Origin: Corynebacterium auris
GTDB lineage: Bacteria > Actinomycetota > Actinomycetes > Mycobacteriales > Mycobacteriaceae
Assembly (NCBI RefSeq): GCF_030408575.1
Contig: NZ_CP047047.1
Coordinates: forward strand, 977,990-1,041,989
Length of the DNA: 64,000 nucleotides
Direction of reading: 5' to 3'
The notes beneath the pieces were generated by a model that saw only the letters and a list, made by a program, of their open reading frames with translations, was not told the origin of the DNA and ran no database searches. Within the stretch, counting starts at the first letter, position 1; each line of letters opens with the position of its first letter. Below are positions 43,124 to 53,973 of this stretch, one piece after another. Position numbers and translations under genes: made by a program.

Positions 43124-44233
43124 CTAGAGCCCGAAGGCGCGCATGATCGTGCGCAGCTTCGCCGTGGTCTCGTCGAGCTCGGCGGCGGGGTCCGAGTCCG
43201 CGACCAGCCCGCCGCCGGCCCAGGCCCGCGCGGTTGTGCCGTCCGCGGCGACCTCAGCGCAGCGAATAGCCACCATATATTCGCCGTCACCCGTGCCGTC
43301 CGTGTATCCGACCGCGCCCGCGTAGAACCCCCGGTCCGACTCGGCCGTGCCGATGAGGGCCTCCGCCGCATGCGTCGGTGTCCCGCAGATCGCCGGTGTC
43401 GGGTGCACGCGCACGGCCAGCTCCAGCGCCGAAAGCTCGGGCTTTTTGAGCTTACCGACGATCGGAGTGGCCAAATGCCACATCTCATTCGTCTTCGTCA
43501 GCTCGGGCGTCTCCGGAATGAACAGCTCTGAGCACAGCGGCGCGAGAACGCCGCGCAGGTGCTCGACCACAAAGGCGTGCTCGATCCTGTCCTTCGCCGA
43601 AGCCGCGAGGCGCTCGCCGCGCTGGGCGTCCTCGGCCCGGTTCGGGTGCCGCGGAGCCGAGCCGGCCAGCGGGAAGGCGCTGACGGTGTCTCCGGAGCGC
43701 CGGACCAGCACCTCCGGGGAGGACCCAACCAGCACGGAGGCGCGCCCGGCGGGGGAGAGATCGGCGATGAATCCGTCCCTGTGGGAGGAGTTGTCGATCA
43801 GCCGCGCGGCGACCAGGAGAGGGTCCACCGGCGGATCGAAGGCGATGTCGACGGCGCGGGCAAGGACCACCTTTTCCAGTTTGGAGGCCCGGATCGTGCC
43901 AATCGCCGCCTCCACCCGCCTCAGGTGCTCCCCGCGCTCCGGGTCGAGCCCGGTGACGGAGGCGCGCAGGCGCGCGCCTTCACCGAACCGGTAGTAAGCG
44001 GGCGGCTCCAGCGGCCCGTCCTCGCGGATGACGCGTTCCGGCACGGTCAGCGCCGCGGGCGAGTCGACGTCGAAAGGCAGCGCCCCGACGACCATCTCGA
44101 CGCGGCCCGAGGAAAGAGCGTCGATGGCAGCCCAGGCGTCCGTGAAGGTTTCCCGGCTGCCTTGGGTGCGTACCGAGCCGTGCGCCCGGGACAACAGGAA
44201 GTCCGGGGCGGTGGTCGGTCGGTTCGCACGCAT
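43124..44233 (-). CDS. Isochorismate synthase
   Basis: 369 residues, chorismate-utilising fold. LEKVVLARAVDI, GSSPEVLVRR, PLAGSAPRHPN, VRVHPTPAICGTP and GFYAGAVGY are diagnostic of MenF/EntC/DhbC enzymes. It makes isochorismate for menaquinone or a catecholate siderophore; no siderophore genes are nearby, so menaquinone is the simpler reading. TAAGAT eight bases upstream of the ATG suggests a leaderless message. The anchored-repeat operon ends 77 bases upstream on the same strand. Confidence 0.88.
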   Translation of the reverse strand: MRANRPTTAPDFLLSRAHGSVRTQGSRETFTDAWAAIDALSSGRVEMVVGALPFDVDSPAALTVPERVIREDGPLEPPAYYRFGEGARLRASVTGLDPERGEHLRRVEAAIGTIRASKLEKVVLARAVDIAFDPPVDPLLVAARLIDNSSHRDGFIADLSPAGRASVLVGSSPEVLVRRSGDTVSAFPLAGSAPRHPNRAEDAQRGERLAASAKDRIEHAFVVEHLRGVLAPLCSELFIPETPELTKTNEMWHLATPIVGKLKKPELSALELAVRVHPTPAICGTPTHAAEALIGTAESDRGFYAGAVGYTDGTGDGEYMVAIRCAEVAADGTTARAWAGGGLVADSDPAAELDETTAKLRTIMRAFGL

Positions 44234-44310: not shown

Positions 44311-45645
44311 TTAGCCGCGCCCGTCGAGGTGGGACAGGACACGCCGGGCGCTGAAGAAGAACAGCACCCCGGCGAACAGGGAAGCGATGCCAAGCCCTAG
44401 TACGAGACCGGCCCACCAGGTGCCCTGCTGCCATGTCGCGCTGGCGGCCTGCGTCTCCGGGGCGGCGTAGGTGACCGGCTGGGCCGGGGGTTGAGCCGCG
44501 CTCGGGGCGGCGTCTGGGATGGGCTCCGCGCCCGGGGCAGTGGTCGGCCCCGACTGCGAGGCGGCCTGCTGGGCAGAAGCGTTTTGTGCCGGAGCTTTTT
44601 GTGCCGGGGCTTTTTGTGCCGGAGCTTTTTGTGCCGGGGCCTTCTGCGCCGGCGCCTGCTGGGCGGGCGCGGCGGCAACGGAGGTCGAGCGCAGCGAGGT
44701 CGGGGCGGGAGATTGGCCTTTCGCGGTGGCGCTCCGTGCCGGGGCCGACTGCTTCGTCGGCTCGCCGGAGCGCGTGGCGGGGGAGCGCGGGGCCGGGGTG
44801 GGCGCCGGGGCGGTCGTCGAGGGGTAAATCTCCTTCAACACCTGGGAGGTAAAGCCGCCCCACGCCTTGTCCAGGGCGGTGAACTCCCTCGTCAGGGCGT
44901 TGAGGTTGCGGGTGATTTCGGCTGGGTCGACGCCATCTCGGCTCGGCCCGCCCGTGCCGTCCTGGTCGTCCTCGGGGGCGAGAGGCGGGATTTCGCTCTG
45001 TTCGACGCATTCCACGGTGGCACTGCCCGTCCGCTCCGCCTCGTCGAGGGTGTCGTCGCCGACGAGGAAGAGCGTGTTCAAGGTCGCGCGGTGCGCACCG
45101 AAGGCGACATTGAAGGTGACGGAGTAGGCGCCGGGCTCGGTGAACCCCCACTCGACGTGCAAGTGCTGGCGCTCGTTGAGGTGGATCGCGGTGCGGGGGG
45201 AGGCGCTATCGAGAAGGATGCGTGGCTTTTCGCCCAGCGGGGTTACCCACGCGAGGACGCGGCCGGGACCCTCCACGGAGGCGAAGGAGATCTCTGCGGT
45301 GGTGGCGATGTCTTCTGCCGAAAAGCCGAACCACGGCAAGTCCTTCTTTTGCACCGAGCTGAGGTAGTACATGCGCGCGGGCAGCGAGGGGTAGTCAATG
45401 GAGGACCACGTCGACCCCGGTACTGCGACGCTGAACTCACCGGAGTTGCGGTCTTCGCCCTCGTCACGCACCACCACGCCCCCGCCCGGCTGCGGTCGCA
45501 GGTCCTGGTGCCCGTTGCGGATGATGTGTCCGACGTCGACGGCGGTGCCGCACACGGAAGGCTCGGCGGCGAAGGCAGGAGGGGCGAAAAAGAGGGGGGT
45601 AGTGGCAAGCGATGCGGTAAGGAGTGCAGAAGCGAGTCGTTTCAT
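44311..45645 (-). CDS. Choice-of-anchor M surface protein with APAQK repeats (operon gene 8)
   Basis: 444 residues. Signal peptide ending AFAA near residue 27; one anchor-M domain (about 30-225) with a divergent NGHQDL start, a PWFGFSAED centre and HLHVEWGFTEPG. Then a hydrophilic linker with a possible coiled coil (NLNALTREFTALDK), about 120 residues of Pro/Ala-rich low complexity with five pentapeptide repeats, and a C-terminal membrane helix ending in basic residues. No LPxTG is seen, so it should be membrane-tethered and reach through the wall. The ATG overlaps the permease stop (ATGA). Confidence 0.85.
   Translation of the reverse strand: MKRLASALLTASLATTPLFFAPPAFAAEPSVCGTAVDVGHIIRNGHQDLRPQPGGGVVVRDEGEDRNSGEFSVAVPGSTWSSIDYPSLPARMYYLSSVQKKDLPWFGFSAEDIATTAEISFASVEGPGRVLAWVTPLGEKPRILLDSASPRTAIHLNERQHLHVEWGFTEPGAYSVTFNVAFGAHRATLNTLFLVGDDTLDEAERTGSATVECVEQSEIPPLAPEDDQDGTGGPSRDGVDPAEITRNLNALTREFTALDKAWGGFTSQVLKEIYPSTTAPAPTPAPRSPATRSGEPTKQSAPARSATAKGQSPAPTSLRSTSVAAAPAQQAPAQKAPAQKAPAQKAPAQKAPAQNASAQQAASQSGPTTAPGAEPIPDAAPSAAQPPAQPVTYAAPETQAASATWQQGTWWAGLVLGLGIASLFAGVLFFFSARRVLSHLDGRG
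44581..44655. repeat. Five 15-bp tandem repeats encoding APAQK-type pentapeptides
   Basis: Units start at 44581, 44596, 44611, 44626 and 44641 (consensus TTTTTGTGCCGGRGC on the plus strand). They code for the Pro/Ala stalk of the surface protein and look slippage-prone. Confidence 0.9.
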
Positions 45646-46493
45646 GCGGGTACTTTCGAACGGAAGCGGACGGGCTGAGCAACCCAGGTAAACAGAAAGA
45701 CGGCGGTCAAGGTGAGCACGATCGTCGCGCCGGTTGGCGCGTCGAGGGCCCAGGACAGGTACAGCCCACACACGGACCCGCCGACGCCGATGAGTGCGGC
45801 CAGCGCCATCATCGACGGCAGGCGGTTGGTCAGAAGCCGCGCGGTCGCGGCCGGGGTGATCAGCAGCGCAAGAACGAGGATGTTGCCGATGGTGCGCAAC
45901 GAAATCACCACCGCGGCGGTCACCGCCAGATAAAGGACCACGTCAAGCGCGAGAACAGGCAGGTTCATCGCGCGCGCCGTTTCGCGGTCCAGGGCCAGAG
46001 CGGTCAGCTGCGGGGTCAGGGCAATGAGCAGCGTGACGACGCCCGCCCCGACCACAAAGGCGATCACGATGTCGGATTCGGACACTCCCGTGATGGAGCC
46101 GAACAGGATGCTGGTCAACGACGCCGTGTAGCCCTGCACGCGCGAGATGATGACCAGGCCGAGAGCGAAGGAAGCGGCGAAAAAGATCCCGATCAAGGTA
46201 TCTTCTTTCACCCGCCGACGCTGGGAAAACACCGCGATGAGAACAGCCACCGACGCCCCGGCGACAGCGCCGCCGAACAAAATGGAGACCTCCAGCGCGA
46301 AGGCGATGGCGATCCCGGGGAAGACGGCGTGGGCGACGGCATCACCGATGAAGGCCATCCCACGCAGGACCACGTGCGTGCCCACCACGCCGCACACCGC
46401 GGCCACGATGATGGAGATGACCAAGGCGCGCGGCAAAAACCCGAGCGCTGGGTTGGCGAGGTCGGAGACGAACTCGAGGGGACTGAGCATCAC
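45642..46493 (-). CDS. Anchored-repeat-type metal ABC transporter permease (ZnuB/AztB-like)
   Basis: 283 residues with about eight transmembrane helices. GTHVVLRGMAFIGDAVAHAVFPGIAIAF contains the AVAHAV coupling region typical of family-9 (Zn/Mn) permeases, and TIGNILVLALLITPAATARLL is the second hallmark. The GTG at 46493 (or ATG at 46490) overlaps the ATPase stop. With the ATPase and binding protein it should form a zinc or manganese importer. Confidence 0.9.
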   Translation of the reverse strand: MMLSPLEFVSDLANPALGFLPRALVISIIVAAVCGVVGTHVVLRGMAFIGDAVAHAVFPGIAIAFALEVSILFGGAVAGASVAVLIAVFSQRRRVKEDTLIGIFFAASFALGLVIISRVQGYTASLTSILFGSITGVSESDIVIAFVVGAGVVTLLIALTPQLTALALDRETARAMNLPVLALDVVLYLAVTAAVVISLRTIGNILVLALLITPAATARLLTNRLPSMMALAALIGVGGSVCGLYLSWALDAPTGATIVLTLTAVFLFTWVAQPVRFRSKVPA

Positions 46494-47236
46494 GCGTTCA
46501 CCCCCACGGCGGATAGGAGAGGGGAATCCGGGCGCACGCCGAAGGTATCGATCCAGGGCTGGGCGATGTTCAGGCGCGCCCGGGAGCCTTCGGCGACGAC
46601 CGTGCGGTTAAACAGCACCAGCCGGTGGCAGGCATGAACAGCCTCGGCGAGGTTGTGGGTGGACATGACGATTGCGGTGCCCTGGCCCGCCAGGTTGTCA
46701 AACAGCTCGAGCAATTGCTCCGAGCTGGGGATGTCGAGGCCGGTGAAGGGTTCGTCGAGAAGCAGCACTTTAGGGCGCGTGGCCAAGGCGCGCGCGACGA
46801 GCACGCGCTGGCGCTGCCCGCCGGAGAGCTCCCCGATCGGGCGGTGCGATAAATCGCTGAGCCGAACGCGCTCTAAGGCCTCGTCGACGGCCTCGTGGTC
46901 CTTCGCGCCCGGGCGCCGGAAGAAGCCGATCAGCCCAGTGCGCCCGCCCATGACGGCCGTGCGCACGTCGATGGGGAAGTCCCAGGCCACCTCGTGGCGC
47001 TGCGGGACGTAGCCGATGAGATCGCGCACCGCGCGCCCCGTCTTGCCGCACACGTCGACGCGCCCCGCCTCAATCGGGATTAACCCAAGAATGGAGCGCA
47101 GCAGCGTTGTCTTCCCCGCCCCGTTCGGCCCCAACAGCCCAACGAATTCACCCTCGTCGATACACAGGCACGCACCGCCAATGACGGGCCGACCTGCCAG
47201 GGATACCGCCAGATCCTCTACTGTGAGCACGCTCAT
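46490..47236 (-). CDS. Anchored-repeat-type metal ABC transporter ATPase (ZnuC/AztA-like)
   Basis: 248 residues. Walker A GPNGAGKTT, Q-loop YVPQRHEVAWDFP, signature LSGGQRQRVLVARAL, Walker B VLLLDEPFTGLD and a switch His in STHNLAEA. Q-loop and signature fit the zinc/manganese subfamily. The ATG overlaps the preceding surface-protein stop (ATGA); the protein begins MSVLTVEDLAVSL. Confidence 0.93.
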   Translation of the reverse strand: MSVLTVEDLAVSLAGRPVIGGACLCIDEGEFVGLLGPNGAGKTTLLRSILGLIPIEAGRVDVCGKTGRAVRDLIGYVPQRHEVAWDFPIDVRTAVMGGRTGLIGFFRRPGAKDHEAVDEALERVRLSDLSHRPIGELSGGQRQRVLVARALATRPKVLLLDEPFTGLDIPSSEQLLELFDNLAGQGTAIVMSTHNLAEAVHACHRLVLFNRTVVAEGSRARLNIAQPWIDTFGVRPDSPLLSAVGVNA

Positions 47237-48138
47237 CGACGCCCACCCTTCCGGCTCACAGCCACGACAGCCGCGGCGACGATGACGAGAAGGAGAACAC
47301 CCGCCCCGAGCAGCCACCAGATGCCGGACGTCTCCGACGCGCCGGGCCCGGCAGCGGTATCCGAGTCCGCGGCGGCGCGGAAGTCGCCCGTCCAGGTCGT
47401 CGCCTGGGCGGCTTCGACGTCGGTGGCGTCGCCCACCGCGAAGGTGATGACCTGGGTGGTGGAGGTCTCCGTGCCGTCGAGAAGCGGCACGGTCACGCGC
47501 AGCGCGACCTGATGGATGCCCGGCTCGGTAAAGACCCAGTTGGCGTGGGTGTGCGTGTTCAGCTCGGCGAAGAAAGGCTGCGTGCCCTCGGCGGCGGAGT
47601 TCCACAGCAGCTGGGGCGGCTCAAAGCCACCGTTTTGCAGGAAGAGGCTGAACTGGCCCGGGCCCTCGTGGCCCGCGAACTCAAAGGTCACGCCGCGGTC
47701 CGCTGCACCGATCAGGTCCGGATTTTGCGTGTTCCAACCGAGCCAGGGAACCCCGGGCACCTCTGTCTGCGGGACAACCCACACGGTCTGGCCGGGGGCG
47801 GCGCCGGTGAATTCAAACTGGTCGCCCTCCGGGAGCGTCTGGGCCGCGGCATCGCCGATGCGCAAAACGACGTCGTCGGTGTGGCGCCAGACAGGCGGCA
47901 CGGACGTGTCGTCGCGGGCGAGGAGATCGAACTGACCCTGGTCGGGCCCCGGCAACGGGCCGAGGTCGACGTGGCCGGCCTCGATGGTAGCCGCAGTCCC
48001 GGGGGATGCCACGGCCTCGTCAGCAGTGACGGTCTGCTGCAGCGCAGGATCCACCGGGGCGGTGGCCGCCAGCGCGGCCGGGGCAACAGTGAGAGCCGCC
48101 GCGAGGGTGAGGGCCGTGGTGCGGGTCGGTGAAAACAT
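47233..48138 (-). CDS. Choice-of-anchor M surface protein (operon gene 5)
   Basis: 301 residues. Signal peptide, one anchor-M domain with all landmarks (AGHVDLGPLPG, VWVVPQTEVPGVPWLGWNTQ, HTHANWVFTEPG, TFAVGDA), a short linker and a C-terminal membrane helix ending SRKGGRR. No sortase motif; single-helix membrane anchor. The gene lies between the binding protein and the ATPase and is coupled to the latter. Confidence 0.88.
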   Translation of the reverse strand: MFSPTRTTALTLAAALTVAPAALAATAPVDPALQQTVTADEAVASPGTAATIEAGHVDLGPLPGPDQGQFDLLARDDTSVPPVWRHTDDVVLRIGDAAAQTLPEGDQFEFTGAAPGQTVWVVPQTEVPGVPWLGWNTQNPDLIGAADRGVTFEFAGHEGPGQFSLFLQNGGFEPPQLLWNSAAEGTQPFFAELNTHTHANWVFTEPGIHQVALRVTVPLLDGTETSTTQVITFAVGDATDVEAAQATTWTGDFRAAADSDTAAGPGASETSGIWWLLGAGVLLLVIVAAAVVAVSRKGGRR

Positions 48139-48177
48139 GGAAAACTCCTATTCTCGTGATCGAACGCGGTGGCGGGC

Positions 48178-49620
48178 TTAAGCCAAACAACGAGCCAGGC
48201 TGTCCGCGTTCTGCTTCATAAAATCGGCGTATGTCGGGGCCCCGTCGTCGAGGGTGTCGCCGCGAATGGGGCACACCGCGATGCCGAGGTCTTTTGCGGT
48301 CTCCGTCAAGGGGGAGGACTGGCGCGCCAGCTGCGGCTCCAAAAACACCGCGGGGACCTGGAGGTTTTCCAGCGTGCGCGTCAGTGCGATGAGGTCACGC
48401 GGGGTCGGTTCCACAGCGGGGTTCGGGCTGACGAAACCGGCGATGGAGATCCCGTAGGCGCGGCCGAGGTAGGCGTAGCCGTGGTGCGTCGTCACCAGGT
48501 GGCGGTGCTGCGCCGGGATTGATTCGATCCGCTCCCGCACGTAGGCGTCCACCTGGGTCAGTTCCGCGAGGTAGGCGTTGGCGTTGCGCTGGTATTCTCC
48601 CGCCCCTGCGGGGTCCACGCGCACCAACTCATCGCGGATCACCTGCACCATCGCCGCAGCTGCGGTCACGTCGTGCCACACGTGGGGGTCGCTTTCCCCG
48701 TGGACGTGTCGGCCGAGTACCGCTTGCGGCAACAGGTATGTCTCGGCACCGGGCCGGCCGAGGAAGCGAAACGCCGGATCGCCCGGGATCGGCTGCAAAG
48801 TCGTGCCCGGCACGGCGATCACTGCGCCCGCCGGATCGAGGGACTGCTTCGCCCCGTGGTCGGTGTCCAAGACCAGCTCGATGACGTCGCCGTCCGCGGT
48901 GATGTCCACGTGCCCCGCGTCCATGACAACGGGGTCGTTGATCCCGGTTGAGGTCGCGGGGTCGACGCCGACGGCCACCGTGACAGTGGCCGCGGGGCCG
49001 GCGGCTTCTGCAACGTCGAGCTCGTAGACGCCCGGGGCGCTAAACGCCCACGACACGTGCGTGTGCGCGCCCACCGGCAGCACGACTTCGTCGGCGGAAT
49101 CCAGCCCATCGGCGCTGTTGAACAGCACCTCAGGCTGGCCGAACGTGGTCGTGATGTAGGCCGCGGCGTCGCCGGGGCCCCGGACATCTGTTAAGGCCAG
49201 GGTGGCATAGTCGGTCGTCGATAAGCCGCTGCCCGCGACACGCAGGCCGAGCCAGACCGCGTCGAGCGCGACGTTTTCCACCAGGGAGACGAGCTCAGAT
49301 CCGTAGCGCGCGAGGTTCTCCGCGACCGGCACCACGGGCGCCGGTTCCAAAAGAAGCCCGTTCGTCAGGGCGAGGTCGGCGTTGGCTATGTCGCGCACGG
49401 CGCGCAGCCCCGGCTCGTAGGAGTGCGGATCCGCTCCCGGCGGGATGAGCGCACGCACGACGGCGCGATCGCCCGCGACGTTGGCCGCGAGGTCGGCCAG
49501 GATCGTGGTCGTGGCCACGACGGAGGGGCGCGCGTCCGCCTCGTCCGGGCCGGCCTGCGCCGGGGCGCATGCGCTTGCTGCTAACGCGAGAGCGAGGACT
49601 GCCATGACGCGGCGCCTCAC
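48178..49620 (-). CDS. Metal-binding protein with an inserted, half-swapped choice-of-anchor M domain
   Basis: 480 residues with a weak lipobox (LAASAC, Cys18). The N-lobe of a TroA/ZnuA-like binding protein (about 30-100) contains IPPGADPHSYEP; the C-lobe (about 325-480) contains SDPHVWHDV, VTTHHGYAYLG and VFLEPQ, giving the three His and one acidic ligand expected for Zn or Mn. Between them lies an anchor-M domain in which the second half (VWLGLRV ... HTHVSWAFSAPG ... VTVAVGV) comes before the first half (DAGHVDITADGD ... ETYLLPQ). The GTG start overlaps the upstream stop (GTGA). Confidence 0.9.
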   Translation of the reverse strand: MRRRVMAVLALALAASACAPAQAGPDEADARPSVVATTTILADLAANVAGDRAVVRALIPPGADPHSYEPGLRAVRDIANADLALTNGLLLEPAPVVPVAENLARYGSELVSLVENVALDAVWLGLRVAGSGLSTTDYATLALTDVRGPGDAAAYITTTFGQPEVLFNSADGLDSADEVVLPVGAHTHVSWAFSAPGVYELDVAEAAGPAATVTVAVGVDPATSTGINDPVVMDAGHVDITADGDVIELVLDTDHGAKQSLDPAGAVIAVPGTTLQPIPGDPAFRFLGRPGAETYLLPQAVLGRHVHGESDPHVWHDVTAAAAMVQVIRDELVRVDPAGAGEYQRNANAYLAELTQVDAYVRERIESIPAQHRHLVTTHHGYAYLGRAYGISIAGFVSPNPAVEPTPRDLIALTRTLENLQVPAVFLEPQLARQSSPLTETAKDLGIAVCPIRGDTLDDGAPTYADFMKQNADSLARCLA

Positions 49621-51149
49621 TTGTGGGCCCTGCCCATCGCGTAGGAGAAGCGCGCGACACCGATGCCGAAGACTAGCAATCCGACGCCGAGGATGGCGAA
49701 GGGGAGGGTCATGAGGGTGGTGCCGGTCTCTGCCAACGTGCCCTGCGCCTGGGGCCGATTGCTCGCAGCGGGTGAGCCTTGAGCGGCGGAGGCGCTAGCG
49801 TTGTCGCTTGCCCCGCTAGCCACGGCGCCAGAAGCGCAGTCCCCGCCGGCCGGGTCGAACTGTCCGCCGAGGTCGAAGTGGCCGTCATTGGCGTTGCCGC
49901 CGCCTTCCCCGACGTGGAAAGTAAGCACGCCGGTACCGGAGTAGGTTGCGCCATCCTTCACCGTGGACTGGCGGATTCCGACTTTGTAGGTACCGGGGCT
50001 GCTGAACAGCCACATCGGGTGGACGTGGGTATTCGGTGCGACGGTGTGCGCACCCTGGCCCTGGCCGTCGCCGCCGCGGAACCACTCCTCGCCCATGATC
50101 TGGCCGAGACCCCCCTGAGTGAACACAACCATCGTGCCGGGGCCCTCAAAGGAAACCAGTTCCCAGGTGACGTCGCCCACCTGGTTTTCCAGCATGGTCG
50201 GGTGCTGGGTGTTCGCGCCCAGCCAGGGCACGCCGGGTTCCTGGACCGCGCCGATCATCCATGCCTCGCCCGCCGGGACGGGGCCGACGGGTTCCGGCAG
50301 GTTCTTCTTCGCGGCGTCACCGAGGCCGAAGGCCAGCTCGCTGGGCGCGCGCCACTCAGCGGGGACGCTGCGGTCATCCTTGACCATCGGGACGATGCCG
50401 GGCGTGCACTTCTGGTCGGCTGCGGGCGCTGCCTCGCCGCCCTGGCCGGGTGCCGGATCGTTGTTGTTGGCTGCCGGGGCGGATGCCGCCAGCGGGGTGG
50501 GCGCAGGTGCGCCATCAGCGGCCGTCCCACCGTCGCCGACGACCCACGTGTAGGTCGCCGTGTTGCTGGACACCCCGTTGCCTGAAGCGTTGACGCGCAT
50601 GGTGTACACGCCGGGCTCTGTGAACGCCCAGTTCACGTGGCGGTGAGCCGGGTGGGGCTGGGTGATGACGGAGCCGCTGATCAGGGCCAGAGAACCGTTG
50701 CCCAGGACAGGGTTGATACCGCCGAGCCCGGCAGTTTCAAAGACGAACACCTCACCGGGGCCGCTGACCTCTTGAAAAACGAGGTCGATGGAGGAGAACC
50801 CGGCGGCGGACACGGCCTGCGTATCCCAGCCCGGCCAGATGAGGTTTTGGTCCTGCGCCTGGGGCAAGTAGTAGGTGGGCTGTCCAATGCCTTCGACGGC
50901 AGCCGTGGCCTCCGACCACGCGGCGTCTTTGACCACGAGGGTGACATCTTCCGGCGCGTGGCGCACGTGGCTGCCTGTGACATCTTCTTTGAGGTCGAGC
51001 ATGAGACCTCCACCGTCCGCAGTGACGTTGAAAGCGTCCACGTGGCCGGAGTCAAGCGCAAGATCCTGCGCCGCGGCTGGCGGCGCTATCCCCACCACAA
51101 TCAAGAGCAGAAGCAGCAGGGACGAGGGGGCAAGTCTGGACGGTGCCAT
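49617..51149 (-). CDS. Two-domain choice-of-anchor M protein with LAETG sortase signal (operon gene 3)
   Basis: 510 residues. Signal peptide; first anchor-M domain (about 30-215: DSGHVDAFNVTADG, YYLPQAQDQ, HRHVNWAFTEPG) and second (about 255-430: WMIGAVQEPGVPWLGANTQ, HVHPMWLFSSPG). The C-terminus is a complete wall-sorting signal: LAETG at 472-476, a hydrophobic helix and a basic tail ending GRAHK. It is the only covalently anchored member of the operon; the LAxTG form suits actinobacterial class E sortases. Confidence 0.9.
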   Translation of the reverse strand: MAPSRLAPSSLLLLLLIVVGIAPPAAAQDLALDSGHVDAFNVTADGGGLMLDLKEDVTGSHVRHAPEDVTLVVKDAAWSEATAAVEGIGQPTYYLPQAQDQNLIWPGWDTQAVSAAGFSSIDLVFQEVSGPGEVFVFETAGLGGINPVLGNGSLALISGSVITQPHPAHRHVNWAFTEPGVYTMRVNASGNGVSSNTATYTWVVGDGGTAADGAPAPTPLAASAPAANNNDPAPGQGGEAAPAADQKCTPGIVPMVKDDRSVPAEWRAPSELAFGLGDAAKKNLPEPVGPVPAGEAWMIGAVQEPGVPWLGANTQHPTMLENQVGDVTWELVSFEGPGTMVVFTQGGLGQIMGEEWFRGGDGQGQGAHTVAPNTHVHPMWLFSSPGTYKVGIRQSTVKDGATYSGTGVLTFHVGEGGGNANDGHFDLGGQFDPAGGDCASGAVASGASDNASASAAQGSPAASNRPQAQGTLAETGTTLMTLPFAILGVGLLVFGIGVARFSYAMGRAHK

Positions 51150-51179
51150 GGGCGAAAAACGGGGTCCTTTCTAGGTGTC

Positions 51180-52865
51180 TTAGCGGCCGATGGTCCTGTT
51201 GAACCACGCGGCGAGCGCGGGGGCGTGCTGGGCGAAGAAGGAGACGACTGCGATGCCGAACACGGCCGCCATCGTCACGCCGATAACGCCGTAGAGGTCG
51301 ACGGAGGAGCCGCTGGATAGGGTGTTTGATTGCCCCGGGTTCGGGCTGTCGTCCTGGCCATCGCCCGGGTCCGGCTCGGGGTTGTCCGCGCCCAGCGCTC
51401 CCGCGGCGTTCTGCGTGGCCGAATGGGAAAACGGCTCGTGCAGGGCCAAAACGCCTGCGGGCGCATTGACGGTGGGGTGGGGAAGGAGGTCCGCGCGCAG
51501 AAGGTACCCGTCGAGAACGCCGAGGGAATCAAACTCCAGTTCCAAGTGGCCGTTTTCTACGGCTCCGTATATAAAGAGGGAGGCCAGCCCTGAGTCCTCT
51601 GTATCGACGTCTGGTTCATAGAGGCCGCCGCGCATGAAACCGCGGAAGTTCTTGTCCTCGAAGTCGACGGTGAGCTTGCTGCGTGTCCCCTCGAGAGGCT
51701 CAACCTTCGCGGTGTAGTTGAGGTTGGTCGGCGTGTGGAGGTCATCGCCCAAGACGGTGTTCGCGGGGTCGTTGACGGGGGCGGCCAGTTCGGCGTTGCC
51801 CTGTTCGGACGTCACCTTGTTGGGCTTGCCTTTGGCATAGCTCAGGGCGGGGGAGATCCAGCGCGCGCCGGTGTCGCCTTCGGGGGTGAAGACCGCCTGG
51901 ATGTCGGAACTTTCGGCGCCGAGGAGCTCGTTCCAGGTGGCTGTGCCGTCGGTGACGTCGAGGTCCGTGAGGAAGTAGCCGTTGATGAAGAGCGTCAGGG
52001 TGCCCTTCAAGGTGGAGTCCTTGGCCGTGAAGGTCACGGTGGACAGATTTTCGTCGCCATCTTTTTCGCCGCCTTCGTAGGGGGCGACCGAAAGCGAGTA
52101 GCCTGCAGCGTCCAGGTCTCCTGCCGGCGCTTTGTCGTAGCGCTCCGAGACAGGCGGCGTTTTCTGGTCCAGGGGACGCTGGCCGCCGACCTGGATGGGC
52201 ATAGTGGTCAGCTCGGAGCTGACGATGTTCCCCTCGAGATCGCGGGCGACGGTGCGGTAGGTCACCTCGTAGCGGCCCGGACGCGTGAACGTCGTGTAAT
52301 TGTGTGTGTGCGCGCCGGGCCACAGGAAGTAGGAACGCGGGCCGTCGGCGGAGCTGAGCAGGTATTCGATGGGGCTGTTCGAGCGCTGCTTGATGAATTT
52401 GTCAACACGGCCAGGGCCGTTGACCGAGACAAGGTCGAGCGAGACGGTGCCGTCGCGGAACTTCTCAGTGGGGAGGTCATCGGCGCCGAAGCCGAGCCAG
52501 ATGGGTTCGTTTCCGCCGATCGGATTGTTGGGTGCGGCATAGACGATGTCCCCGGGGGCTCCGAGGAAACTCAGTGCAGGATCGGTCGGCACCTCGAATT
52601 GGTACTGATTGTCCCCGGTGCCGCCCCAGGCCCAGCCTTTCCCCACCCACACGACCGTGTCTTCGACGTCCTTGACCTTGTCGCCCTCGTAGGAGGACTT
52701 GAGCCGGAAAGTATCGCCGGACCAGAAGGTTTTCGGGGCGTCGACGTGGGTTCGGGTCACGACGGCCTTGCCGTCGTCAGGCCCGGCGACGGCGGTGACG
52801 GGGGACAGGAGGAAAAGTGCGGTCACAGCGGCTGCGACGCGGCGGCTCGTGCGGAGGGTACCCAT
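51180..52865 (-). CDS. Large anchored-repeat surface protein (operon gene 2)
   Basis: 561 residues. Signal peptide cut near VTAVAG; a divergent anchor-M domain (RTHVDAPKTFWSGD ... PIWLGFGADD ... HTHNYTTFTRPG), then about 270 residues of beta-rich sequence unique to this protein (STVTFTAKDSTLKGTLTLFI; LEFDSLGVLDGYLLRADLL), a Pro/Asp-rich linker, an SSGSS motif and a C-terminal membrane helix. The start at 52865 has AAGGAAA upstream; an in-frame extension to 52916 lacks a signal. It replaces GHVD by THVD and may bind a different partner. Confidence 0.82.
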   Translation of the reverse strand: MGTLRTSRRVAAAVTALFLLSPVTAVAGPDDGKAVVTRTHVDAPKTFWSGDTFRLKSSYEGDKVKDVEDTVVWVGKGWAWGGTGDNQYQFEVPTDPALSFLGAPGDIVYAAPNNPIGGNEPIWLGFGADDLPTEKFRDGTVSLDLVSVNGPGRVDKFIKQRSNSPIEYLLSSADGPRSYFLWPGAHTHNYTTFTRPGRYEVTYRTVARDLEGNIVSSELTTMPIQVGGQRPLDQKTPPVSERYDKAPAGDLDAAGYSLSVAPYEGGEKDGDENLSTVTFTAKDSTLKGTLTLFINGYFLTDLDVTDGTATWNELLGAESSDIQAVFTPEGDTGARWISPALSYAKGKPNKVTSEQGNAELAAPVNDPANTVLGDDLHTPTNLNYTAKVEPLEGTRSKLTVDFEDKNFRGFMRGGLYEPDVDTEDSGLASLFIYGAVENGHLELEFDSLGVLDGYLLRADLLPHPTVNAPAGVLALHEPFSHSATQNAAGALGADNPEPDPGDGQDDSPNPGQSNTLSSGSSVDLYGVIGVTMAAVFGIAVVSFFAQHAPALAAWFNRTIGR

Positions 52866-52984
52866 GAAAGTTTCCTTATGTAGAGGGCCAAAGTGCCCTT
52901 TGACGAAAATGTGCAAGAACAGATGGGGGAGCGCCCGCGCCGGCAGCCGAGTGACGAGGGCACAGGCGCAGCCTCACCCCTTCA

Positions 52985-53005
52985 GCGGCGCCGACACGGC
53001 GCCGC
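52985..53005. promoter_or_regulatory. GC-rich intra-operon hairpin
   Basis: GCGGCGCCG-ACA-CGGCGCCGC, nine perfect pairs, immediately after the stop of operon gene 1 and without a U tract. It may lower expression of the downstream genes or protect the 3' end of a first-gene message. Confidence 0.5.
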
Positions 53006-53009
53006 GGGT

Positions 53010-53903
53010 TTAGCGGCCGGTCAGGTTGCTGATCCAGCCGGTGATCGCCGGGATGTTGCTGGCGAGGAAAGCGAGAAGGCCCGCGCCAAAGACGGCCGCC
53101 AGGGCAATCCCGGCCGTGGCACCTGGATCGAGCGAAGAACCGCTGGACAGAATGCTTGATTGTCCCGGGCCGGGGGCGGCGCAGTCGGTTGCTTTTGTGA
53201 CGGCGTCTTTGCCGACGGCGAACGTTGCCTTCTGCACCTCGGACTTCAGTTCCTTGCCATCTTTGGTGCGGGCGGTGTACCAGACGTCGAGGGTGTAGGT
53301 GCCTGGCTGAGTGAAGATCCAGTTGGTGTGGACGTGGGTGCTGAGGCCGATGTCGATAGTGGTGTCGCCATCTTTGGTGCTGAGCAGGAGGGGGCCGTCG
53401 GCGTGGAACAAGGCGAGGTGGCCGTCTTTAGGGCCGTCGGCGATGGTGATGTGGAGATCGACGGTGCCGTCGATGGTGCCGTAGTCGATGGTCTCGGTGT
53501 TGTATCCGGGCCAGAGAATGTCGGGGTTTTGCACTTCGGGCAGCAGGTAGAACGGTGAATCTTTGGGGTCGATGAAGTTGTAGAAGGGGTCGGCGAAGGC
53601 GCCTTCGCGGAATTTGCGGGCGTTGTCGCGGACGCCGAAGACGACGCTGTCGAGGCGGCGTTCTGTCACGCCGGGGGTGGTGTTGGTGTCGTCTTGCAGG
53701 ACGATGCCGAGATTAGTTTTCCCGCCGGTGGCTTTGATGTCCACGTGGCCGCGGTCGATGAGCGGCTTATCCGAACACACCTCAGCGCCTGCGGCTTGAG
53801 CGGTGAGGCTCTGGCTGGGCTCGGCCAGTGCGGTGGACGGGGCGAGGAGGCTGGCCGCGAGCGCCGCCGCGATCGCTGGGCGGCGTAGCGTGGAGCTGTG
53901 CAT
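53010..53903 (-). CDS. Choice-of-anchor M surface protein, first gene of the operon
   Basis: 297 residues. Signal peptide ending STALAE near residue 28; one anchor-M domain with DRGHVDIKATGG, YLLPEVQNPDILWPGYNTE and HVHTNWIFTQPG; then an SILSSGSSLDP stretch and a C-terminal membrane helix. The start at 53903 (MHSSTLRRP) has GAAAGG upstream. The SSGSS motif shared with gene 2 is typical of corynebacterial exported membrane-anchored proteins. It sits directly behind the Zur-like palindrome, so it should be the most metal-responsive gene. Confidence 0.87.
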   Translation of the reverse strand: MHSSTLRRPAIAAALAASLLAPSTALAEPSQSLTAQAAGAEVCSDKPLIDRGHVDIKATGGKTNLGIVLQDDTNTTPGVTERRLDSVVFGVRDNARKFREGAFADPFYNFIDPKDSPFYLLPEVQNPDILWPGYNTETIDYGTIDGTVDLHITIADGPKDGHLALFHADGPLLLSTKDGDTTIDIGLSTHVHTNWIFTQPGTYTLDVWYTARTKDGKELKSEVQKATFAVGKDAVTKATDCAAPGPGQSSILSSGSSLDPGATAGIALAAVFGAGLLAFLASNIPAITGWISNLTGR

Positions 53904-53950: not shown

Positions 53951-53973
53951 CTATTGGCAACGATTTCCAATAG
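53951..53973. promoter_or_regulatory. Zur-box-like palindrome at the anchored-repeat operon promoter
   Basis: CTATTGG and CCAATAG flank CAACGATTT, with further symmetry inside. On the operon strand the central 15 bases, TGGAAATCGTTGCCA, match a TGAAAATnnTTTTCA-type Zur site (from memory) at about 12 positions. It lies just upstream of TAGATTTATAG, which can serve as the -10. Confidence 0.5.

Follow-up and report, generated by a model that had tools for sequence, protein, structure and literature searches.

The system described here is a cluster of eight genes (P1 to P8) on the minus strand of a 64,000-nucleotide (nt) stretch of Corynebacterium auris DNA (contig NZ_CP047047.1; hereafter the window), where it runs from 53903 down to 44311. 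The preliminary description of this DNA had seen in it an ATP-binding cassette (ABC) importer for metal joined to five wall- or membrane-tethered proteins, and all eight genes were found to be present on that strand. The features on which the analysis rests are the following:

53952..53972, no strand assigned: candidate Zur operator TATTGGCAACGATTTCCAATA, a 21-base-pair (bp) palindrome that begins 49 nt before the start codon (ATG) of P1
53010..53903, minus strand: P1, secreted, with one standard HxD/HxH domain (HVD, HVH) and a C-terminal LSSGSS plus transmembrane tail
51180..52865, minus strand: P2, secreted, with one standard HxD/HxH domain and the same LSSGSS plus transmembrane tail as P1
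49617..51149, minus strand: P3, TIGR03773, ZnuG-like, with a standard domain D1, a permuted domain D2 and a LAETG sortase signal
49722..49736, minus strand: LAETG sortase motif of P3 (LPXTG-like), the sortase signal
49872..49880, minus strand: HFD codons of P3-D2, which lie after HxH and not before it (GHFDLG on strand 423–432 in the model)
48178..49620, minus strand: P4, ZnuA/TroA-like binding protein, TIGR03772, a probable lipoprotein as judged by eye
48715..49272, minus strand: permuted HxD/HxH insert of P4, residues ~112–297, in which model part 78–185 precedes part 3–74
47233..48138, minus strand: P5, ZnuE-like, with a standard HxD/HxH domain and a C-terminal transmembrane anchor
46490..47236, minus strand: P6, ABC ATPase of the anchored-repeat type, ZnuC-like
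45642..46493, minus strand: P7, ABC permease of the anchored-repeat type, ZnuB-like
44311..45645, minus strand: P8, with one HxD/HxH domain, an alanine/proline/glutamine-rich stalk and a glycine-rich transmembrane tail, in the ZnuF position

Four of the products exceed the curated cut-offs of the anchored-repeat families in NCBIfam, in agreement with the families first proposed for them: P4 (TIGR03772, 607.6 bits, cut-off 350.45), P6 (TIGR03771, 354.8 bits, cut-off 268.8), P7 (TIGR03770, 415.1 bits, cut-off 296.8) and P3 (TIGR03773, 330.6 bits, cut-off 190.3), the models being three equivalogs and one hypothetical equivalog. In Pfam, P4 also matches PF01297 (ZnuA) with 222 bits and P7 matches ABC-3. 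The choice_anch_M model of NCBIfam (cut-off 55 bits) matches P1 with 146.7 bits, P2 with 137.3 bits, P5 with 176 bits (HVD at residue 56, HTH at 196) and P8, encoded directly 3' of the permease gene, with 71.1 bits. An additional region of P2 gave a weak immunoglobulin-like match under the cut-off. A profile search of the 2.44-Mb genome yielded eight choice_anch_M matches, seven of them above the cut-off, and all are located within the operon.

The genes are closely packed, as had been noted before. Overlaps of 4 nt join P3/P4 (if P4 starts at the GTG), P5/P6, P6/P7 and P7/P8, and the gaps are 30 nt for P2/P3, 39 nt for P4/P5 and 144 nt for P1/P2. (P4 may start at the GTG at 49620 or at the ATG at 49605; residues are counted from 49605.) A single transcript for all eight genes is plausible from this arrangement. 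The P1/P2 gap (52866–53012) folds strongly as RNA (−68.9 kcal/mol, z-score −3.96), with strong hairpins and without a T run; the gap may act in attenuation or mark a place where the mRNA is processed. A promoter consensus scan gave zero matches and is hence uninformative on promoters, and a terminator consensus scan was likewise uninformative. The neighbouring genes are those of an isochorismate synthase (43124–44233) and gltX, the latter on the plus strand.

Relatives of the cluster were collected in two ways. A survey of 151 Corynebacterium genomes, including that of the window and drawn evenly from a larger group, gave a TIGR03772 protein above the cut-off in 71; the 72 loci compared below are the window, the regions of the other 70 and one fragment below the cut-off (G131). 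A scan of named genomes supplied the best 80 of 424 relatives, which partly overlap the 72-locus set, do not include a C. diphtheriae locus, and reach Gleimia, Boudabousia, a metagenome-assembled genome of the Bifidobacteriaceae, Microbacterium, Streptomyces, Jiangella and Micromonospora. Removal of duplicates from both sets left 123 distinct binding-protein loci, and in 116 of these a gene for a domain protein lies directly 3' of the binding-protein gene.

As judged from the profile matches and motifs, the HxD/HxH domain is newly recognised here to occur in three orders related by circular permutation. Both HxD and HxH are retained in each of the seven domains of the operon: in the standard order, in the order of P3-D2 with the HxD strand at the end, and in that of the P4 insert, which is cut in mid-domain. 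The TroA-like character of P4 had been recognised correctly in the preliminary description, which missed that the protein carries a circularly permuted HxD/HxH domain of its own. With the NCBIfam model, part 59–165 is matched first in the insert and part 2–73 second. The swapped profile order was found in 151 of the 152 binding-protein reading frames of both sets, or in 122 of the 123 distinct loci, the exception being the fragment L109. A strict motif test placed HxH ahead of HxD in 133 of the 152 frames and left 19 undecided.

The permutation was assessed further with a profile of 120 standard domains from which binding proteins and the window were left out. When the P4 insert was rotated, its score rose from 62.7 to 104.6 bits, and 150 of 151 binding-protein frames improved (median from 68.6 to 107.2; duplicates included, L109 omitted). 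In the control, none of 150 standard domains outside the profile improved; here rotation lowered the score from 157.6 to 96.0 bits. For P3-D2, rotation widened the match from 21–185 to 5–185 and the score went from 113.5 to 117.9 bits, a small gain because only a short strand moves. The P3-D2 form, defined as HxD only downstream of HxH and a profile match starting beyond position 12, accounts for 66 of the 612 domains found in 422 unique surface proteins; with the rule drawn a little wider, 66 were called in Corynebacterium and two elsewhere.

AlphaFold2 models agree with these orders. In the model of P4 (mean predicted local distance difference test score, pLDDT, 87) the strands of the insert run from 118–123 to 206–212 and from 232–238 to 288–292, consistent with the permutation. 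In that of P3 (pLDDT 80.8), D1 starts with strand 35–45 (HVD) and D2 ends with strand 423–432 (HFD); a fold comparison of P3 gave matches to common beta-sandwiches only and is uninformative either way. It is very hard to believe that the permutation of P4 is an alignment artefact, in which two unrelated beta segments happen to carry HxH and HxD: the 19 undecided frames and the small gain of P3-D2 would fit such an artefact, but the rise of the P4 insert on rotation, the near-universal gain of the binding-protein frames against none of the standard domains, and the predicted strand order do not. As all three strand orders keep HxD and HxH, they provide evolutionary evidence that both motifs form one site. 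Among the matches listed in literature searches on ZnuA, zinc and substrate binding, 'circular permutation' was not found, although the wider literature may contain it; those for choice-of-anchor M, TIGR03769, TIGR03773 and anch_rpt were, by title, on other subjects.

The position of the insert within P4 is informative. When P4 is aligned to solved chains, the match of the N-terminal lobe stops near residue 88 and restarts near 300, just before DPH308VW, and the same gap is seen by profile alignment. In AztC, the D-loop (residues 117–133) sits just before a zinc ligand, and this loop and its three histidines are reported to be essential for uptake of zinc from the chaperone AztD (PMC7463823). 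Since the insert fills the gap that holds the D-loop in AztC, it appears to replace the zinc-accepting loop. The motif H300-x-H302 adjoining the insert is invariant in 55 sequences, as are H61, H308, H374 and D450; H61, H308 and H374 were assigned to the cluster A-I site by aligning P4 with the residues published for C. diphtheriae.

Evidence on the metal comes from the Zur boxes. The actinobacterial Zur consensus is given as a 21-bp palindrome of the form 10-1-10 (PMC2823685). TATTGGCAACGATTTCCAATA fits this consensus and is the sole such site in the window, where 0.14–0.15 are expected; a second 21-bp box with at most two mismatches was not found in the window, including within the permease gene. 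The 15-bp core of the box occurs 49 times in the 72 loci, versus 8 for the reversed pattern, and 35 of the 49 cores fall inside start regions of surface or binding-protein genes (6.2% of the DNA; 3.0 expected), as do 2 of the 8 reversed ones. A core near the start of a surface or binding-protein gene is present in 31 loci, and for 28 the gene concerned is the first on the operon strand. Over the whole C. auris genome, the core is found 8 times and the reversed pattern twice. These boxes make zinc the likely metal. Import of manganese or iron is, by comparison, improbable. It would agree with the structural comparison, in which the lobes of the binding protein score best against the manganese/iron proteins MntA, PsaA and YfeA among the solved chains, but the Zur boxes argue against it, as do the three-histidine site, the presence of the zinc-specific AztC among the close structural matches (the best Foldseek matches of P4 are YfeA, MtsA, MntA, PsaA and AztC), and the zinc-regulated, zinc-binding homologues reported from C. 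diphtheriae (PMC6711530, PMC12445094).

Of the seven core sites elsewhere in the genome, two were judged good by their flanks. One, TAATGGCAATTGTTTTCATAA (L120:1498–1518, near 1922643), is located about 30 nt before the gene of a FecCD/BtuC-like ABC permease whose model scores are under the cut-off; the gene perhaps belongs to a Zur-controlled importer of the metallophore or cobalamin type. The other is near a reading frame that by eye resembles an acyl-CoA dehydrogenase of the 3-hydroxy type. The genome contains one Fur-family gene, beside a reading frame that looks ArsR-like on inspection of the DNA. This frame, just upstream of the Fur-family gene (L226, near 1732229), appears to end early, which may affect a zinc-regulator pair or may be an assembly error.

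The surface proteins differ in how they are held. Within the last 70 residues, an LPXTG-like motif is found in P3 and in none of the other four; in P3 it is followed by a transmembrane segment and a charged tail (C-terminal helix 481–509 in the model), and the genome contains three sortase-family genes (PF04203 matches); the wall-linked LAETG protein of the preliminary description is thus borne out. In the tails of the ZnuG-position proteins of loci L072, L073, L075, L081, L085 and L088, which come from several species and are encoded just before the binding protein, a glycine-rich transmembrane segment but no LPXTG-like motif was seen, as if sortase anchoring had been lost. The idea that the LSSGSS plus transmembrane tail of P1 and P2 serves throughout the genome as a wall signal independent of sortase, and so accounts for the localisation of ZnuF, was considered and rejected in that form. 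With a three-tail LSSGSS alignment, P1 and P2 were the sole strong matches in the genome (two others at E values of 0.58 and 0.68). An eight-tail alignment gave 12 strong matches in 12 picked genomes, all in this operon type and in 9 of the genomes, with none in 3, together with 7 weak matches outside the operon (E values from 0.0005 to 0.04). The transmembrane tail of the post-permease gene, the position occupied by P8, is well conserved (consensus GGFWAGLLLGLGAMALLGG over 61 sequences), with the strict motif W.G...G.G in 35 of the 61; several of the others are out-of-frame ends. From its conservation, this tail is a candidate for the sortase-independent wall localisation of ZnuF.

Five surface genes had been put forward as more than the usual one to three. 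By gene number this is fair, but the window holds no record. The 72 loci have 2 (10 loci), 3 (33), 4 (19), 5 (6) or 6 (4) surface genes on the same strand, the low counts being possible underestimates as contig ends shorten four of the loci, and some counts of 5 and 6 being apparently inflated by broken frames (L060, L074, L109). Thus 10 of the 72 loci, the window included, have at least five. Counted as surface zinc domains, of which the window has six, at least six are present in 20 of the 72 loci, again including the window. Both counts weaken the case for an exceptional cluster. In addition, a two-domain protein of the relative L057 resembles P1 in its C-terminal half (67% identity) and P2 in its N-terminal half (60%), so that P1 and P2 have the look of one protein split over two genes.

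The reading we favour, with a probability of about 80%, is that of a unit for zinc uptake, of the znu (anchored-repeat) type and repressed by Zur, for which we infer a relay through the surface domains as the mechanism. Under zinc shortage, Zur would leave the box at 53952 and the genes would be expressed. P6 and P7 would form the importer, and P4 would be a receptor with two metal stations, the cluster A-I site and the inserted HxD/HxH domain, the latter standing in for the mobile histidine/aspartate loop of other zinc receptors. P5 would act as a membrane-anchored carrier, with P3 linked to the wall by sortase and P1, P2 and P8 held on membrane tails or a stalk. When zinc is scarce, the surface domains would capture it and act as a buffer close to the membrane; P5 would hand the zinc to the matching domain of P4, whose own site would then load the permease. 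Such a relay from the surface to the importer is plausible, and it is the hand-over steps and their order that we infer. From the earlier proposal of metal capture at several depths of the envelope, what stands is an importer with membrane- and wall-anchored proteins bearing metal-binding domains, probably one unit and probably for zinc; the inward hand-over is not supported as it was stated. A further suggestion, tentative and on balance doubtful, is that one domain was re-cut into three permuted forms, each suiting a different mechanical setting, and that the mid-domain cut enabled its insertion into ZnuA at the zinc-accepting loop, giving a like-to-like relay from wall to membrane to receptor.

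The main rival is that the surface proteins store or withhold zinc, as a buffer or to deny it to competitors or the host, and do not feed P4, transport being a matter of P4 to P7 only. We regard this as a serious possibility, at somewhat less than even odds, and storage or withholding may hold together with a relay. In C. diphtheriae, ZnuF and ZnuG are reported to be dispensable with an intact importer and to reduce growth in its absence, and the authors name sequestration or storage (PMC12445094). Moreover, the number of surface genes varies from 2 to 6 over the 72 loci with a mostly constant core order, as expected of an accessory layer. Against a role confined to storage, the surface genes are interleaved with the importer genes, some with 4-nt overlaps, the P4 insert is homologous to the surface domains, and ZnuE, which bears the same domain, is reported to be required (PMC12445094).

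Several observations weigh against the zinc-uptake unit with a relay. The C. diphtheriae growth data on ZnuF and ZnuG suit sequestration or storage at least as well as inward hand-over: according to PMC12445094, single deletion of znuF or znuG had no effect with the importer intact. The same study reports that deletion of znuA had a modest effect only, and that the response to zinc in vitro persisted in a triple-histidine mutant of ZnuE. In our own comparison, 81 of the 612 domains lack one or both motifs, so that some copies may not bind metal. An exact Zur core close to the genes concerned is present in no more than 31 of the 72 loci, and these loci are related, hence the counts are not independent. 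The Fur-family gene is not named as Zur by NCBIfam, all models scoring far below their cut-offs (at best 65.6 of 220 bits, for a Fur model, and 33.1 of 167 for the Zur model). Finally, the structured gap of 144 nt may uncouple P1, which may therefore be expressed differently from the rest.

What the permutation contributes is best seen against the C. diphtheriae study, which was unable to establish in vitro that the HxD/HxH residues make up the zinc site and did not settle what link the surface proteins have with the importer (PMC12445094). A receiver domain in ZnuA that is homologous to the surface proteins is a candidate direct partner for hand-over, and three permuted forms, one of them inside the capture protein, suggest a possible route for zinc from the surface to the importer. 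The P3-D2 form and the ZnuA insert are also natural permutants for structural work.

The system is of a known kind because it is of the type of the C. diphtheriae znu cluster (PMC12445094, 2025), and the view that these families are hardly studied is out of date since that cluster was characterised. There, the znuAECB and znuF-dip0445 operons are zinc-controlled (PMC12445094; PMC6711530). ZnuE, ZnuF and ZnuG carry HxD/HxH and show zinc-dependent thermal shifts in vitro, ZnuE is required for growth when zinc is low, the presence of ZnuF and ZnuG impairs growth of cells that lack the importer, and loss of the whole znuF-445 locus lengthens the lag phase (PMC12445094). The two clusters share the same kinds of genes, the core order ZnuA, ZnuE, ATPase, permease, the HxD/HxH domains and probably Zur control, as well as an HxD/HxH membrane protein between binding protein and ATPase (P5 between P4 and P6) and a post-permease gene for a surface protein without a sortase signal (none was found in P8). 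They differ in that the importer is preceded by three surface genes and followed by one here, and in that C. diphtheriae has a second Zur-controlled promoter inside the permease gene, whereas no second 21-bp Zur box with at most two mismatches was found in the window. P8 is provisionally equated with ZnuF and P3 with ZnuG from gene position, the sortase motif and the tail. While C. diphtheriae ZnuG has a single motif, P3 contains two domains, of which the second is permuted. In the C. diphtheriae study, HxD and HxH were seen to stand in reversed order in ZnuA, and proof that these residues bind zinc was not obtained; in the available part of their paper the reversed order is described, but circular permutation and the P3-D2 form are not (PMC12445094).

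The NCBIfam entries for the anchored-repeat ABC systems (TIGR03769 to TIGR03773, choice_anch_M) name the families in their descriptions without reference to permutation or zinc specificity. The extra domain of AdcA of Streptococcus pneumoniae is a C-terminal ZinT domain, whereas that of P4 is inserted and permuted. As is proposed for P4, AdcA is a two-domain, zinc-recruiting lipoprotein that serves an ABC importer (PMC7858048). With AztABCD of Paracoccus denitrificans the cluster shares a cluster A-I receptor, in which a flexible loop before the histidine of DPHxW takes the zinc (PMC7463823). The donor AztD, however, is a beta-propeller (PMC7463823), whereas the loop position of P4 is occupied by a folded domain from the family to which the presumed donors belong.

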